A stretch of 64,000 nucleotides of DNA. Source: Paracoccus sp. SMMA_5_TC (GTDB taxonomy: Bacteria > Pseudomonadota > Alphaproteobacteria > Rhodobacterales > Rhodobacteraceae). Made by a program: the position numbers and the translations under genes. Each line of letters opens with the position of its first letter. The stretch's first letter is position 1. This document shows, in pieces, positions 30,802-62,497 of the stretch. The stretch covers positions 2,529,501 through 2,593,500 of the forward strand of contig NZ_CP102355.1 in the NCBI RefSeq assembly GCF_009696685.2. The letters run 5' to 3'. The notes beneath the pieces were generated by a model that saw only the letters and a list, made by a program, of their open reading frames with translations, was not told the DNA's origin and ran no database searches.

Positions 30802-31230
30802 CTACCAGTGGCCTGTATTTTCCATGCTGGCCCAGGGCTCTTGCGGCGGCAGACGCTCGCCCGCCTGCAAGAGTTCGATAGAGATGTTGTCCGGGCTGCG
30901 CACAAAGGCCATGTGCCCGTCGCGCGGCGGTCGGTTGATGGTAACACCCGCTGCCATCAGCCGCTCGCACAGGTCGTAGATGTTTTCGACCTGATAGGCG
31001 AGATGGCCGAAATGCCGGCTGTCTGACGGCAGGCCGTCGTCGCCATCCCAGTTCCAGGTCAGTTCGACCGGGGTTTCCGGCTGGCCGGGCGGGGCCATGA
31101 ACACCAGGGTGAACCGCCCCTGGTCGTTTTCGACGCGGCGAATCTCTTCAAGGCCCAGCAGGCGGTAAAAGGCGATGCTCTTGTCCAGATCCAGCACCCG
31201 GACCATGGTGTGCAGATAACGAATTTTCAC
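30802..31230 (-). CDS. gloA: Lactoylglutathione lyase (glyoxalase I)
   Basis: Converts the methylglyoxal-glutathione hemithioacetal to S-D-lactoylglutathione, feeding glyoxalase II (at 3.4 kb in this window). The 142-residue VOC-fold protein has the metal ligands in the expected places: His 7 (YLHTMVRVLDLDKS), Glu in PVELTWNWD, His in HFGHLAYQVENI and Glu in NISIELLQ. It is divergent from thyX. Confidence 0.92.
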   Translation of the reverse strand: MKIRYLHTMVRVLDLDKSIAFYRLLGLEEIRRVENDQGRFTLVFMAPPGQPETPVELTWNWDGDDGLPSDSRHFGHLAYQVENIYDLCERLMAAGVTINRPPRDGHMAFVRSPDNISIELLQAGERLPPQEPWASMENTGHW

Positions 31231-36600: not shown

Positions 36601-36936
36601 TCAGATCGAAAAGCTGGTGCCGCAGCCGCAGGACGAACTGGCATTGGGATTGTCGATGGCAAATCGCGCGCCAATCAGTTCATCGACGAAATCGATGGTC
36701 GCACCGGCCAGGAACGGCAGCGACACAGGATCGACCACCACGGTCTGCCCCCCGCCCTGCAGGACAAGGTCATCCTCGGCCACATCGTCCAGGCGGATGT
36801 CGTATTGAAAGCCCGAACAACCGCCGCCCGATACCGCGACGCGCAGCGGCCGGGCCGGGCCGTCGCCATTGATTTCGGCCAGCCGCGCAAAGGCACGTTC
36901 GGTCACGCGCGGTGGCAGGTTCAGTTCCAGGTTCAT
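36601..36936 (-). CDS. A-type iron-sulfur carrier protein (IscA/ErpA/SufA family)
   Basis: A 111-residue protein that carries Fe-S clusters to target apoproteins. The three conserved cysteines are in SGGGCSGFQYDI and SSSCGCGTSFSI at the C-terminus. No isc or suf genes are adjacent, so its exact subgroup (ErpA or HesB) is not fixed. It lies 37 bp before exonuclease III on the same strand. Confidence 0.92.
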   Translation of the reverse strand: MNLELNLPPRVTERAFARLAEINGDGPARPLRVAVSGGGCSGFQYDIRLDDVAEDDLVLQGGGQTVVVDPVSLPFLAGATIDFVDELIGARFAIDNPNASSSCGCGTSFSI

Positions 36937-37012
36937 GGGGCGTTCCCGTTTCCGTCGTCAGGTTGGGAATATAGGGTTGCGCCGAAATTCTCGCAAGGAA
37001 TGCACGGAGATC

Positions 37013-57981: not shown

Positions 57982-59093
57982 AACGCTTCCTCCCATTCGC
58001 CATCCGGGGTCGAATCCTGCACGATCCCGCCGCCCACATTCAGCGTCACCTCGCCATCGGGCCAGACCGACAAGGTCCGGATGGCGACAGAAAAACAGGC
58101 CGCGCCATCCGGTGCCATCCAGCCGATCGCGCCGCAATAGATGCCGCGGGCAAATGGCTCGACCTCGCGGATGATCTGCATGGCCCGGATCTTGGGCGCA
58201 CCGGTGACCGAGCCGCAGGGAAACAGCGCCCGCAACAGCGGCTCCAGCGCGGCCGGCTGTTGCAGGCGGCCGGTCACGCGCGAGCTCATCTGATGCACGG
58301 TGGCGAAACTGTCCACGGCGAAGAGTTCCGGCACCCGCACCGAGCCTGGATGCGAGATGCGCGCGATGTCGTTGCGCAGCAGATCGACGATCATCAGGTT
58401 TTCGGCGCGGTTCTTTTCCGATGCCGCCAGCGCCGCCGCCAGCGCCGCATCGCGCTGCGGATCGGGGTCGCGCGGGGCCGTGCCCTTCATCGGGCGCGTC
58501 TCGATCACGCCTTGCGCGTCAAGACGAAAGAACAGTTCTGGCGAGCGTGAAACCACGATGGGTCCGCAGCCCGGATCGGCATAGGCGCCAAAGCCGACCG
58601 GCTGGCGCGCGGCCAGCGCGGCGTAGAGTTCCCAAGGATTGCCCTGGCGCAGCCGGCTGGCGATCGGAAAGGTCAGGTTGATCTGATAGCAGTCTCCGGC
58701 GGCAATATAGTCCAGCGTGCGGTCAAAGGCGCGACGATAGTCACCGGGTGCAATCATCGGGCGCAGCGGATCCAGCCGCACCGCCGGCGGGGGCGGCAAG
58801 GCCGGGGCTGGGCCGGGGGCGTCATAGGCCCCCATGGCCAGCAAGGGGCCGCGCCGCGCATCGGGCATCTGTGCGGCCAGCGCCGGTTCCAGCGCATAGC
58901 CCAGTTCATAGGACAGACAGCCGGCAATCCACGCGCCCTGCCTGCGCAGATGTTCCAGCCGCTGCAGCGCCGGGGCAACCTCGGCCGGGGTTTCGGCCAC
59001 GACCGTTTCCGCCGGGCCCTGAAACAAGGCCGGGCCCTGGGGGCCGAAATCGCACAGCAGGCTGCCCGGCGGCGGGGCGGGTCGCGTGGTCAT
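57939..59093 (-). CDS. pabB: Aminodeoxychorismate synthase component I
   Basis: Converts chorismate and ammonia to 4-amino-4-deoxychorismate in folate synthesis. The 384-residue protein is chorismate-binding type: AAGDCYQINLTFPIA, RPMKGTAPRDPDP, SEKNRAENLMIVDLLRND and FPCGSVTGAPKIRAM. The ATG at 59093 overlaps the kinase stop as ATGA. No pabA is adjacent, so glutamine amidotransferase activity must come from elsewhere. Confidence 0.94.
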   Translation of the reverse strand: MTTRPAPPPGSLLCDFGPQGPALFQGPAETVVAETPAEVAPALQRLEHLRRQGAWIAGCLSYELGYALEPALAAQMPDARRGPLLAMGAYDAPGPAPALPPPPAVRLDPLRPMIAPGDYRRAFDRTLDYIAAGDCYQINLTFPIASRLRQGNPWELYAALAARQPVGFGAYADPGCGPIVVSRSPELFFRLDAQGVIETRPMKGTAPRDPDPQRDAALAAALAASEKNRAENLMIVDLLRNDIARISHPGSVRVPELFAVDSFATVHQMSSRVTGRLQQPAALEPLLRALFPCGSVTGAPKIRAMQIIREVEPFARGIYCGAIGWMAPDGAACFSVAIRTLSVWPDGEVTLNVGGGIVQDSTPDGEWEEALWKARFVQDLTTPT

Positions 59094-60274
59094 GCGCAGC
59101 CAGCGCCCAGCGGCATGGTGAAGGTAAAGCGGGTTTCGGCCGGCGACGAGGTCACGCCCAGCGTGCCGCCATGCCCGCGCGCGATCTGGGAACAGATGTA
59201 AAGCCCCAGACCCAGCCCGCCATGGGCGCTGTCTGCCTGGCGGAAGAACGGCTGGAAAAGGCGCTGTTGCACCTCGGGCGGGATCGGAGTGCCAGCGTTG
59301 GACACCGATAGGCAAAAGTTGTCGGCATCGGTCACCGCCTCGAAGCGGATTGGTTGATCCGGGCAACCATGCGTCACCGCATTGCCCAGAAGGTTCGACA
59401 CCATCTGCGCCATCCGGCGCGGATCGACCGCCACCGGCCGGTCGATGCTGATCCGGGGCTCGATGCTGCGATCGGGATGGGCGCGCAGGATCTCGCCCAG
59501 CGCCTGCTGCAACGTCTCGGCCAAGGGCACGCTGGCATCGGGCACGATCTCGATGCCCTGCGACAGTCGGCCGCGCGCCAGATCCAGCAGATTGTCCACC
59601 AGGTCTGTCATTCGGTCCACGGTCTGCTGCATGGTCACAACCAGCTGCGCTTCTTCCTCGGCAAGATCGGCGCGCGCAAGGATATTGGTGCCCGCGCGCA
59701 GCGCCGCCAGCGGATTGCGCAGATCATGGCCCAGAACCGCCAGGAACTGTTCGCGCAGCCGACCGATCCGGCGGCTTTCGCCCAGTTCCGCGCGGCCATC
59801 CCGCAGCGCCCGCCTGTCATCGATGGCGCGGCCGATCATCTGCGCAAACAGCCGGCACATGGGCAGGGCGGGGCCGCTCAGCAGAGGCACGGGCGTGGCA
59901 CCGATCGCACAAAGGGTGCCGAAAACCGTGCCGTCGCCCAGCAGGATCGGCACCGAAAGATAGCTGCTGAGCCCGTATCGCGCCGGCACCGGATGGTCGG
60001 CATAGACCGGGTCGCGGGTGATATCCTCGATCACGATTTCCTGACGCAACTGCGCCACCTGGTGGCACAGCGTCGCCTCGGCCGGCAGCTGCTGGCCCGC
60101 CGCCAAGCCCGAACGCAGATGATCGGCCACCGCGCAGGCGGTCCACTGCTGCCCGGCCACGCGGCTGATGGCGGCAAAGCCCATGCCGCTGGTCTGGCAG
60201 ACGACCTTCAGCAGATCGGGGACGAAGTCGATTTCGCCAATGATTTCGACCCAGTTTTCAGTGGCGGCGGACAA
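59090..60274 (-). CDS. GAF-domain sensor histidine kinase
   Basis: A soluble two-component kinase of 394 residues without membrane helices: a GAF domain at about 15-155, the HisKA H-box VLGHDLRNPLAALRAG (His 183), and an ATPase domain with the N-box NLLGNAVTHG and G-box HGGLGLGLYIC. I chose the TTG at 60274, because AGGAGAGAAC lies 6-7 bp upstream; the ATG at 60421 would overlap the divergent gene's start and the SOS box. Its stop overlaps pabB (ATGA), but no response regulator is in the window. The signal is unknown. Confidence 0.82.
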   Translation of the reverse strand: MSAATENWVEIIGEIDFVPDLLKVVCQTSGMGFAAISRVAGQQWTACAVADHLRSGLAAGQQLPAEATLCHQVAQLRQEIVIEDITRDPVYADHPVPARYGLSSYLSVPILLGDGTVFGTLCAIGATPVPLLSGPALPMCRLFAQMIGRAIDDRRALRDGRAELGESRRIGRLREQFLAVLGHDLRNPLAALRAGTNILARADLAEEEAQLVVTMQQTVDRMTDLVDNLLDLARGRLSQGIEIVPDASVPLAETLQQALGEILRAHPDRSIEPRISIDRPVAVDPRRMAQMVSNLLGNAVTHGCPDQPIRFEAVTDADNFCLSVSNAGTPIPPEVQQRLFQPFFRQADSAHGGLGLGLYICSQIARGHGGTLGVTSSPAETRFTFTMPLGAGCA

Positions 60275-60383
60275 GCGTTCTCTCCTGCATTTCGGCGGCA
60301 CGTTATCTTCTTGCAGAAACCTCGTCACGCGGTTTCGCAGGCGCGCCGCATCGCTGCCATCCGCCCGCCGCGCCCATGCCGTA

Positions 60384-60412
60384 TTGCAGGCCACGGAAAG
60401 AACATTTATAGA
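60384..60412 (+). promoter_or_regulatory. Predicted promoter of the radical SAM DNA-repair gene
   Basis: TTGCAG (60384-60389) and TATAGA (60407-60412) are 17 bp apart. A start 7-8 bp later would be at the A of the ATG at 60420, so the mRNA would have almost no leader. The hexamers are moderate; the position fits well. Confidence 0.6.
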
Positions 60413-60414
60413 AC
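60400..60414 (+). promoter_or_regulatory. LexA (SOS) box, GAAC-N7-GAAC
   Basis: GAAC-ATTTATA-GAAC is an exact match to the alphaproteobacterial SOS operator (GTTC-N7-GTTC read on the other strand). It covers the -10 element and lies 5 bp before the start codon of a DNA repair-type gene. Binding of LexA here would block transcription until DNA damage. Confidence 0.85.
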
Positions 60415-60419
60415 ATTGC

Positions 60420-61646
60420 ATGAAACGTTCCTTGCAGGACCGCCTGGCCATCCTGGCCGACGCGGCCAAATACGATGCCTCCTGCGCCTCCAGCGGCACC
60501 CGCCGGCGCGACGCCCGCCAGGGCGGCCTGGGCTCGACCGAGGGCATGGGCATCTGTCACGCCTATACGCCCGACGGGCGCTGCATCTCGCTTCTGAAGA
60601 TCCTGCTGACGAATTTCTGCATCTATGACTGCGCCTATTGCATCAATCGCAGTTCCAGCAATGTCGCCCGCGCCCGCTTCAGCCCCGACGAGGTGATCTG
60701 GCTGGTGCTGGAATTCTACCGTCGCAATTATATCGAGGGCCTGTTCCTGTCATCGGGCATCGCGCGCAGCGCCGATCACACCATGGAACAGATGGTGCGG
60801 ATCGCCCGCGACTTGCGGCAACGCCATGGCTTTCACGGCTATATCCACCTGAAAACCATCCCCGAGGCCTCGCCCGATCTGATCGCACAGGCTGGCCGCT
60901 ATGCCGATCGGTTGTCGATCAATGTCGAACTGCCGACCGATCGCGGCCTGGCCGATCTGGCCCCCGAAAAGCGGCCGGGTCAGATCCGCGGGGCCATGGC
61001 CGACCTGCGGCTGCGGATCGAAGCCGCAGCCGAGCCCACCCTGCGCGGCCGGCGCCAGGATTTTGCCCCGGCCGGGCAATCGACGCAGATGATCGTGGGC
61101 GCCGACGGTGCCGATGACGCCACGATCCTGGGTGCCTCGGCCCGGCTTTACGACAGCTATGCGCTGAAGCGGGTCTATTATTCCGCCTTCAGCCCTATCC
61201 CCGATGCCTCGTCGCGGTTGCCGCCGGTGAAACCTCCCTTGCTGCGCGAACACCGCCTGTATCAGGCCGACTGGCTGTATCGGTTCTATGGCTTTTCGAT
61301 GCAGGACATTACCAGCGCCCGACCGGACGGCATGCTGGACCTGGACCTTGACCCCAAGCTGGCCTGGGCGCTGGCCCATCGCGCCGCCTTTCCCGTCGAC
61401 ATCAACCGCGCCCCGCGCGAGATGCTGTTGCGCGTGCCCGGTCTGGGGCTGCGCACGGTCGAGGCGATCCTGAGCGCGCGCCGTCACCACCGCCTGACGC
61501 TTGATGATCTGGGCCGGCTGCGGGTGTCGTTGCGCAAGGTGCGCCCGTTCGTCTGCGCGCAGGGCTGGACGCCGCTGCGCCTGATCGACCGCAGCGACCT
61601 GCGCCAGATGTTTGCGCCGCCCCCGCAGCAACTGGCGCTGCTGTGA
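60420..61646 (+). CDS. Putative DNA modification/repair radical SAM protein (TIGR03916 type)
   Basis: A 408-residue radical SAM enzyme. The cluster motif CxxxCxxC is FCIYDCAYCIN with Cys 67, 71 and 74, preceded by ILADAAKYDASCASSGT, the signature N-terminus of this family. A C-terminal helix-hairpin-helix region (LLRVPGLGLRTVEAILSARR) points to DNA contact. The family is related to spore photoproduct lyase. The ATG is at the predicted transcript start. Its stop overlaps the next gene by one base. Confidence 0.92.
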   Translation: MKRSLQDRLAILADAAKYDASCASSGTRRRDARQGGLGSTEGMGICHAYTPDGRCISLLKILLTNFCIYDCAYCINRSSSNVARARFSPDEVIWLVLEFYRRNYIEGLFLSSGIARSADHTMEQMVRIARDLRQRHGFHGYIHLKTIPEASPDLIAQAGRYADRLSINVELPTDRGLADLAPEKRPGQIRGAMADLRLRIEAAAEPTLRGRRQDFAPAGQSTQMIVGADGADDATILGASARLYDSYALKRVYYSAFSPIPDASSRLPPVKPPLLREHRLYQADWLYRFYGFSMQDITSARPDGMLDLDLDPKLAWALAHRAAFPVDINRAPREMLLRVPGLGLRTVEAILSARRHHRLTLDDLGRLRVSLRKVRPFVCAQGWTPLRLIDRSDLRQMFAPPPQQLALL

Positions 61647-62497
61647 TGCGACTGACGTTGCGGTCACAGGCCGATGCGGCCGAATGGCGCCAATTGGCGC
61701 GGGCGGCGTTTCAGGCCGGGTTGCCGCCGGAGGCGACGCGCTGGCAGGTGGATCCCGCCGCGCCATCCTGCCCGAAGGATGCAGGCCCCGCCATCCGCCC
61801 GCCGCCGCGCGTGCCGCGCGCCTTTCCCGATCTGGCAGCCAGCGCGCTTTGCCACGTTGAACCCGCGCGCTTCGAGCTGCTTTACAGCCTGTTGTGGCGC
61901 CTGCAGGATCGGCCGCAATTGCTGGACGATGCGACGGACCCCCAGGTATCGCGCCTGCGCCGGCTGACCCGGGCCGTGCGGCGCGATTGCCACAAGATGC
62001 ACGCCTTTCTGCGCTTTCGCGAGTTGCCGGGCGATGGTCGGCGCCGCTTTGTGGCATGGTTCGAGCCCGATCATCACATCGTGGCCCGCGCCGCACCCTT
62101 TTTCGCTGCCCGCTTTGCCGACATGGACTGGCAGATCCTTACCCCTCGGGGCAGCGCCTGCTTTCACGCCGGCCGCCTGCGCTGCGACGAACATCCCGCC
62201 GCCAGGCCCGACCTGCCCACGGACGCGACCGAGGAATTGTGGCGCAGTTACTATGCCGCCACCTTCAACCCCGCTCGGCTGAAACTGCGGGCGATGCAAT
62301 CGGAAATGCCCCGCAAATACTGGACCAACCTGCCCGAGGCGCAGCTGATCCCCGACCTTGTCGCGGGTGCCGAGGCCAGGGTGCGCGCCATGCAGCATCA
62401 GCCGCCGCGACAGCCGCCCGCTTTTCACGAACGCCTACAGGCCCGGCGCCAGGCGCAGGGCGCGACTGGCAAGGCTACCCCTGACGATCAGGGATGA
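61646..62497 (+). CDS. DUF4130/TIGR03915-type DNA metabolism protein without a UDG domain
   Basis: A 283-residue protein of the TIGR03915/DUF4130 family, which regularly accompanies the radical SAM gene. Landmarks: FELLYSLLWRLQDRP, VRRDCHKMHAFLRFRELP, FAARFADMDWQILTPRGSAC and SEMPRKYWTNLPEAQLIPDL. In many proteobacteria it is fused to a UdgX-type uracil glycosylase; this version ends without one. The ATG overlaps the radical SAM stop (TGATG), so they are co-translated. Confidence 0.88.
   Translation: MRLTLRSQADAAEWRQLARAAFQAGLPPEATRWQVDPAAPSCPKDAGPAIRPPPRVPRAFPDLAASALCHVEPARFELLYSLLWRLQDRPQLLDDATDPQVSRLRRLTRAVRRDCHKMHAFLRFRELPGDGRRRFVAWFEPDHHIVARAAPFFAARFADMDWQILTPRGSACFHAGRLRCDEHPAARPDLPTDATEELWRSYYAATFNPARLKLRAMQSEMPRKYWTNLPEAQLIPDLVAGAEARVRAMQHQPPRQPPAFHERLQARRQAQGATGKATPDDQG

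Follow-up and report, generated by a model that had tools for sequence, protein, structure and literature searches.

A radical SAM/DUF4130 gene pair of Paracoccus with a predicted LexA operator and an apparently leaderless start

The present analysis concerns a gene pair in the genome (3.12 Mb) of Paracoccus sp. SMMA_5_TC, in which a radical S-adenosylmethionine (SAM) protein and a DUF4130 protein are encoded behind a predicted LexA operator; the window, that is, the whole stretch of DNA that was analysed, comprises 64,000 nucleotides (positions 2,529,501 to 2,593,500 of contig NZ_CP102355.1). The radical SAM protein belongs to TIGR03916 (rSAM_link_UDG), which we take to be equivalent to COG4277. 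The closest described systems are the COG1573-COG4277 operons, which encode a uracil-DNA glycosylase (UDG) together with a helix-hairpin-helix/radical SAM protein and for which LexA control was predicted in Bacteroidetes (PMC8565304). The same paper refers to previous work on SOS regulation of the UDG system in Verrucomicrobia and Alphaproteobacteria. As far as the accessible part of PMC8565304 goes, these operons and the window's pair share the same gene family by description and the same SOS control, so LexA regulation of this gene family has already been predicted and is not new; the window's copy differs in being without a UDG domain, and leaderless promoters and DUF4130 are not mentioned in that part. 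DUF4130 had already been linked to radical SAM and UDG proteins in PMC3765255, where, in the section available, the DUF4130-associated proteins were called SplB-like radical SAM photolyases. The domain fused to DUF4130 in relatives of the window's protein matches UdgX, a cross-linking UDG (PMC10359453; PDB 6ail and others), but the UdgX structures are of a single domain and UdgX is absent from the window's copy. UdgX is in use as a uracil-trapping tool, and its physiological role is stated in the available sections of PMC10359453 to be largely unknown.

The same pair in the same order, DUF4130-UdgX with TIGR03916, is present in Paracoccus yeei (plasmid pYEE4) and in P. denitrificans PD1222 (PDEN_RS22940/22945). 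The P. yeei copy has a one-base gene overlap and a box identical to the window's, and both copies are annotated with UdgX, whereas the window's copy is without it. Rhodobacter is a relative of the window's organism. In Rhodobacter sphaeroides, the acuR operon was reported to be leaderless and repressor-controlled, with a transcript start placed exactly at the AUG by 5' RACE and a strong fall in expression when the ATG was missing (PMC3017554). By the accessible text of that report, acuR-acuI-dddL resembles the window's pair in having an operator over the promoter, no Shine-Dalgarno (SD) sequence and a start at the AUG; it differs in its repressor (AcuR, responding to acrylate) and in its metabolic genes, and the start was measured there but is predicted here. 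In S. meliloti, 171 leaderless starts were mapped, all of them at AUG according to the part of PMC3616915 available. In the literature searched, neither TIGR03916 nor UdgX together with radical SAM was mentioned; COG4277 was named in a single paper, as was DUF4130 together with radical SAM, and no leaderless LexA-controlled gene of this kind was found among the titles and abstract starts covered, which is weak evidence of absence. What is new is the predicted leaderless design common to most of the family, the loss of UdgX and an extra set of cysteines.

We regard it as probable that the pair forms a leaderless operon for DNA repair (or DNA modification) under repression by LexA, its regulation and function being predicted. 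All elements lie on the plus strand. A -35 element, TTGCAG (60384-60389), read from the sequence, is separated by 17 bp from a -10 element, TATAGA (60407-60412), which falls within the spacer and second half-site of the predicted LexA operator GAACATTTATAGAAC (60400-60414), a perfect GAAC-N7-GAAC (GTTC-N7-GTTC on the other strand). The -10 element stands 7 nt before the ATG, a spacing that fits a leaderless mRNA. The radical SAM gene (408 amino acids, aa; 60420-61646) extends from the ATG at 60420-60422 to the TGA at 61644-61646, and the DUF4130 gene (283 aa, TIGR03915; 61646-62497), which lacks the C-terminal UdgX domain, begins with the ATG at 61646-61648, stop and start overlapping as TGATG; the same overlap was found in 70 of 133 loci. 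On direct reading, the coordinates of the initial annotation all proved correct, and the perfect box overlapping TATAGA, with TTGCAG at 17 bp, is seen in the sequence. Its assignment of a TIGR03916 radical SAM protein with a DUF4130 partner likewise holds, both proteins scoring above the curated cut-offs (556.2 bits vs 343.5 over model positions 1-395 of 415 for TIGR03916; 197.9 vs 112.25 for TIGR03915); against PF13566 (DUF4130), the second protein scored 142.5 vs 27. In the family Rhodobacteraceae, TIGR03915 was matched in 28 genomes, and 27 of these encode TIGR03916 as well.

The comparison was made over 134 loci (numbered with L): the family search contributed 27, the class search 23 and the genus search 81, and 3 are from Verrucomicrobia, these three being all that a scan of genome contigs with the DUF4130 protein found. 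Rows L058 and L059 of the family search (second half of a split gene; weak match), L121-L125 and other matches under the cut-off in the class search, and a partial gene (G597) and a fragment of G561 in the genus search were left out. For the promoter analysis 129 loci were used, omitting L057, L155, L156, L157 and L209 (fragment, other phylum, no usable start). The sets are not independent: the window is counted in them and three genomes contribute two loci each (L164 and L209, L192 and L201, L135 and L208). A search of the phylum gave 84 genomes over the cut-off, and 24 newly fetched best loci were examined, L313 repeating the genome of L189.

A comparison of upstream regions across Rhodobacteraceae, suggested in the initial annotation, returned the same box: 25 of the 27 same-family loci (the window's own included) carry it with spacing 7 no more than 150 nt from the start, while spacings 3-6 and 8-12 gave 0-2 of 27 each, and 70,032 bases downstream of the start in these loci held a single box. 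A perfect box within 300 nt upstream was found at 128 of the 134 loci, again counting the window. The six loci without it are L053, which has a degenerate GAAC-N7-GTAC box and a clear SD leader, L057 (fragment), L100 and the three Verrucomicrobia, in whose upstream regions the alphaproteobacterial box was not found and which presumably use a different LexA motif. The phylum search added 23 of 24 further loci with the box, the exception (L304) being from outside the class. The operator 15-mer is identical in L199, L200, L206 and the P. yeei pYEE4 copy (L302). LexA and RecA are both encoded in the window's genome and both genes have an upstream box in GAAC orientation, so that the conserved promoter box and a LexA and RecA with boxes of their own, as in alphaproteobacterial LexA regulons, are all found in this genome. 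Among control genes, a box within 80 nt was found for lexA in 30/30, recA in 23/30 and gyrA in 0/29. The reading of the box as a LexA operator, and with it the predicted LexA control of the pair, is supported.

Promoters were scored in the 80 nt before the start by a fixed consensus scheme for -35/-10 pairs with spacers of 16-18, which was untrained on these sequences. Upstream of the start codon, the -10 of the best promoter ended at a distance of 4-8 nt in 103 of the 129 loci, and at exactly 6 nt in 76; the same geometry was found in 262 of 2580 shuffled upstream regions (~10%), 0/30 lexA, 0/29 gyrA and 2/30 recA genes. An anti-SD duplex of -5 kcal/mol or lower was predicted for 13/129 radical SAM genes compared with 28/30 lexA, 27/30 recA and 16/29 gyrA genes, the recA and gyrA figures being favoured by picking the start with the strongest SD. 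The start codon was ATG in 123 loci and GTG in 6. Because the -10-to-ATG spacing is conserved, the SD is mostly absent and the lexA, recA and gyrA controls differ, the predicted leaderless transcription of the pair is well supported, and the apparent start of the transcript at the ATG, proposed earlier from the window alone, gains the same backing. We infer that LexA bound at 60400-60414 would cover the -10 and block RNA polymerase, and that cleavage of LexA upon DNA damage would release transcription from the A of the ATG at 60420, give or take a base or two. The leaderless mRNA would then be translated from its 5'-terminal AUG, the second gene following through the TGATG overlap.

The position of the operator varies within the family. 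In Phaeobacter inhibens P10 (PhaeoP10_RS18550/18555), the end of the box is only 2 nt from the ATG. The GAAC box lies over the -10 in 32 loci and between the -35 and the -10 in 59, the GTTC box lies over the -10 in 10 and over the -35 in 5, and one locus has no box. The promoter near the ATG scored best in 27/32, 56/59, 7/10 and 4/5 of these placements, respectively, and is thus the best predicted one in most loci of each. A quick tree was made of 130 proteins (L120, of 270 aa, left out and L155 and L156 added), in which support is weak for 48 of 126 inner branches; it requires at least 15 changes of placement class overall and 7 within the family. The notion of a shifting operator beside a fixed start geometry was discarded, there being at least 7 changes for each label in the family. 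The 15 family loci with the opposite (GTTC) orientation are L042, L045, L129, L137, L143, L145, L146, L149, L150, L159, L163, L177, L195, L205 and L207, and their boxes over the -10 or -35 look as if re-created. Some of the changes of the leaderless label are soft, since the near-ATG promoter of L142 and L143 is within 0.2 of the best score; L196 has an in-frame ATG 6 nt further upstream. In five loci of one other alphaproteobacterial family (L319, L320, L321, L324, L325), the box GTTCATGATATGTTC always lies 96-99 nt before the radical SAM ATG, and because of this constant distance a leadered SOS promoter is probable in that family.

The radical SAM motif CxxxCxxC of the first protein (C67/C71/C74) is kept in all 404 aligned rows, most of which are alphaproteobacterial or verrucomicrobial and some of which repeat one protein. 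Three further N-terminal cysteines are nearly as constant: C46 and C55 in 403 of the 404 rows, and C22 in 391 (12 gaps, one G). The region of residues 22-75 corresponds to 60483-60644 of the window. In the one outlier, L332 (Gemmatirosa, 35% identity), C22, C46 and C55 are all gone together; no DUF4130 was detected beside L332, nor beside L329, which keeps the cysteines. This pattern suggests that C22/C46/C55 form one extra site, perhaps for an auxiliary Fe-S cluster. In lipoyl synthase, too, three N-terminal cysteines stand ahead of the radical SAM motif. The C-terminal part of the protein weakly matches helix-hairpin-helix proteins (ComEA-related, E 0.0067; PDB profile search), and PF14520 or PF12836, taken here as helix-hairpin-helix models, is found in some homologues; a C-terminal helix-hairpin-helix is probable. 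In the proposed mechanism, SAM would be bound with a [4Fe-4S] cluster on CxxxCxxC, with a second metal site probable on C22/C46/C55, and the helix-hairpin-helix domain would grip DNA while radical chemistry is carried out on a damaged or modified base jointly with DUF4130.

The initial annotation rightly left the enzymatic job of the pair as not established. Compared with solved structures, the single radical SAM sequence gave two weak matches and the single DUF4130 sequence none. The radical SAM profile gave 12 weak and partial matches in the PDB at E 0.1, of HydE/biotin-synthase type or to helix-hairpin-helix proteins. No convincing relative of DUF4130 was found among solved structures, the profile matches being to the UDG part of the relatives, together with two chance-level rows. 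The window's family has three extra near-invariant cysteines and a DUF4130 partner, which to our knowledge are not features of spore-photoproduct lyase (SPL). We consider it unlikely that the first protein is no more than an SPL of the SplB type acting on thymine dimers: the DUF4130-associated proteins are named SplB-like radical SAM photolyases in the available section of PMC3765255, but TIGR03916 was the only NCBIfam match at E 0.001, with none to an SPL model, and no SPL structure is among the 12 profile matches.

As regards transcription, it could be argued that LexA control is real but that the main start lies further upstream and gives an ordinary leader, so that the promoter at the ATG would be secondary or spurious. 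In favour of this, L053 has a degenerate box and an SD leader; the best promoter lies further upstream in 13 of the 22 loci outside the family, and the -10 of the window is imperfect. We consider such a leader quite unlikely for the window's pair, given that SD-like sequences were found in 13/129 loci compared with 28/30 for lexA and that the -10 lies at 4-8 nt in 103/129, in each of the operator placements of the family. Several observations nevertheless count against a LexA-controlled, leaderless operon and are gathered here. The promoter set is dominated by one genus (82 of 129 loci), and, in the choice of starts, an ATG no more than 24 nt away from the aligned one was favoured. The best promoter lies elsewhere in 26 of 129 loci (3 of these at 9 nt). 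Near-ATG promoters were best in 71/82 loci of the genus, 23/25 of other genera of the family and 9/22 of other families, so that the leaderless-like geometry (94/107 inside the family vs 9/22 outside) appears to be mainly a trait of this family. P. denitrificans PD1222 has the box at -31 and shares its upstream sequence with L142 throughout the 58 nt compared; its near-ATG promoter is weak and slightly outscored by another site. Judged by consensus, the window's promoter is weak, and a strict sigma-70 scan reported none; its rule requires a -10 with a final T, and TATAGA ends in A. Folding of the mRNAs over their first 40 nt averages -6.05 kcal/mol, compared with -6.23 and -8.72 for two internal positions, and the window's value is -11.9 kcal/mol; the 5' ends are not clearly more open than inner parts, and this gives no support to leaderless translation. 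At least 11 changes of the leaderless label (4-9 nt) are needed on the protein tree, 7 of them within the family, as many as for the operator class there; hence, by the tree count alone, the start geometry does not emerge as more stable than the operator placement. The auxiliary metal site is a candidate, put forward on conservation alone. Lastly, the box on its own is near chance in the window, where three perfect boxes compare with 1.28 +/- 1.14 in shuffles (15 of 100 reach 3), which is not significant; its significance comes from its position and its conservation across loci.

A UDG match was obtained at 117 of the 134 loci, the DUF4130 frame itself running on for at least 150 residues in 115, with the UDG in another frame in L164 and L209. 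K(R/K)RxH is present in 97 and GEQPG in 74 of these 117, some loci being cut short. GEQPG and KRRIH are motifs typical of UdgX, by the accessible text of PMC10359453, and both are found in the UdgX domain of L199, L200 and L206, the three closest relatives of the window's copy (radical SAM proteins 84-86% identical). In the window, the DUF4130 protein ends in the linker after DUF4130, and a search there for a UDG remnant gave none (best tblastn E 0.99). TIGR03914 is over its cut-off in 26 of the 27 TIGR03916 genomes of the family, the sole exception being the window's genome. The search for a separate UdgX gene elsewhere covered this genome alone and gave two TIGR03914 matches under the cut-off, of 20 bits and of 113.7 bits, the latter an ordinary UDG of the GEAPGEEED type without KRRxH. 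The linkage to UDG (UdgX) that gives TIGR03916 its name is therefore missing at the window, although the curated model is still matched. Judged from its sequence, the window's copy has lost the UdgX domain. It is not alone in this: 17 loci are UDG-less, and after setting aside L057, L105 and L120, which are cut by contig ends, 14 UdgX-less pairs remain, four of them in this genus (L055, L132, L134, L147). As UdgX is gone here, the radical SAM protein and DUF4130 may be regarded as the core and UdgX as an add-on. In most relatives, UdgX would serve as a covalent trap for uracil-derived abasic sites and would be accessory.

It might be objected that the window's pair is a decaying remnant, non-functional after the loss of UdgX. 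This is very unlikely. UdgX is indeed absent from the copy, the TIGR03914 matches of the genome all stay below the cut-off, and the dN/dS of DUF4130 is somewhat higher in comparisons of the window with L199, L200 and L206 (0.235-0.392) than among these relatives themselves (0.153-0.241). Against decay, both frames are open, the operator is identical to that of the relatives, every residue that is invariant in a 41-sequence alignment (of which the window's protein is a member) is present in that protein, and in 13 other loci a pair without UdgX is followed by sequence with space for about 200 residues. The dN/dS of the radical SAM gene in the same comparisons is 0.157-0.168. With ratios well below 1, both genes are still under constraint after the loss of UdgX, although the values are approximate, since dS exceeds 1 in some pairs. 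A coincidental box, or a site of another regulator that would leave the pair outside the SOS response, is highly improbable: the three boxes of the window are within chance, and most boxes of the genome may be chance (106 matches, 58 + 48, vs 68, 28 + 40, for the reversed control pattern), but the box stands at 128/134 loci, is specific to spacing 7 and accompanies lexA (30/30) and recA (23/30), and an independent prediction for COG4277-COG1573 has been published, as given in the accessible part of PMC8565304.

The window's copy falls into a clade of the protein tree (support 100) that includes L199, L200, L206 and proteins of two other families, and the other members of its genus lie elsewhere. 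Plasmid relatives of the gene were found in 158 records, the nearest on P. yeei plasmids (86%). Horizontal transfer of the pair together with its switch would be the simplest reading. In a collection of phages, tblastn matches to the radical SAM protein were found in 10 records, all below 60% identity and 8 without annotation; four of them were used for cysteine conservation and upstream sequence. Tentatively, radical SAM and DUF4130 may constitute a stand-alone SOS-induced system of radical repair or base modification with two metal sites, in which an atom, for instance sulfur, is perhaps added to or removed from a base, UdgX being an accessory for one outcome that was dropped repeatedly, and the damage response travelling on plasmids with the genes, as operator, promoter and leaderless start all lie within about 40 bp by the ATG; this is possible but doubtful. 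In many relatives, the predicted SOS control extends to UdgX along with a radical SAM enzyme and DUF4130, and a genome that dropped UdgX yet keeps the other two genes constrained allows the core to be told from the accessory part. A leaderless start is predicted for most family loci, under several operator placements, and offers a testable example of an SOS gene without a ribosome-binding site.

The repair pair is adjoined by a divergent gene for a GAF-histidine kinase (59090-60301, minus strand), and P. yeei has another neighbour at this place. The idea that the box also controls the kinase was dropped, as the possible starts of the latter (60274-60301) are about 100-125 bp away and the neighbour differs in P. 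yeei. PADLOC gave no defence-system match at E 0.01. Two other perfect boxes are found in the window, both on the minus strand. One (31051-31065) is inside a 142-aa minus-strand frame (30802-31230) and is probably due to chance. The other (36931-36945), which may be chance too, overlaps the start codon (ATG) of a minus-strand frame of 111 aa (36601-36936) that we take to be HesB/IscA-like by its look, the opposite frame being presumably dGTPase-like.

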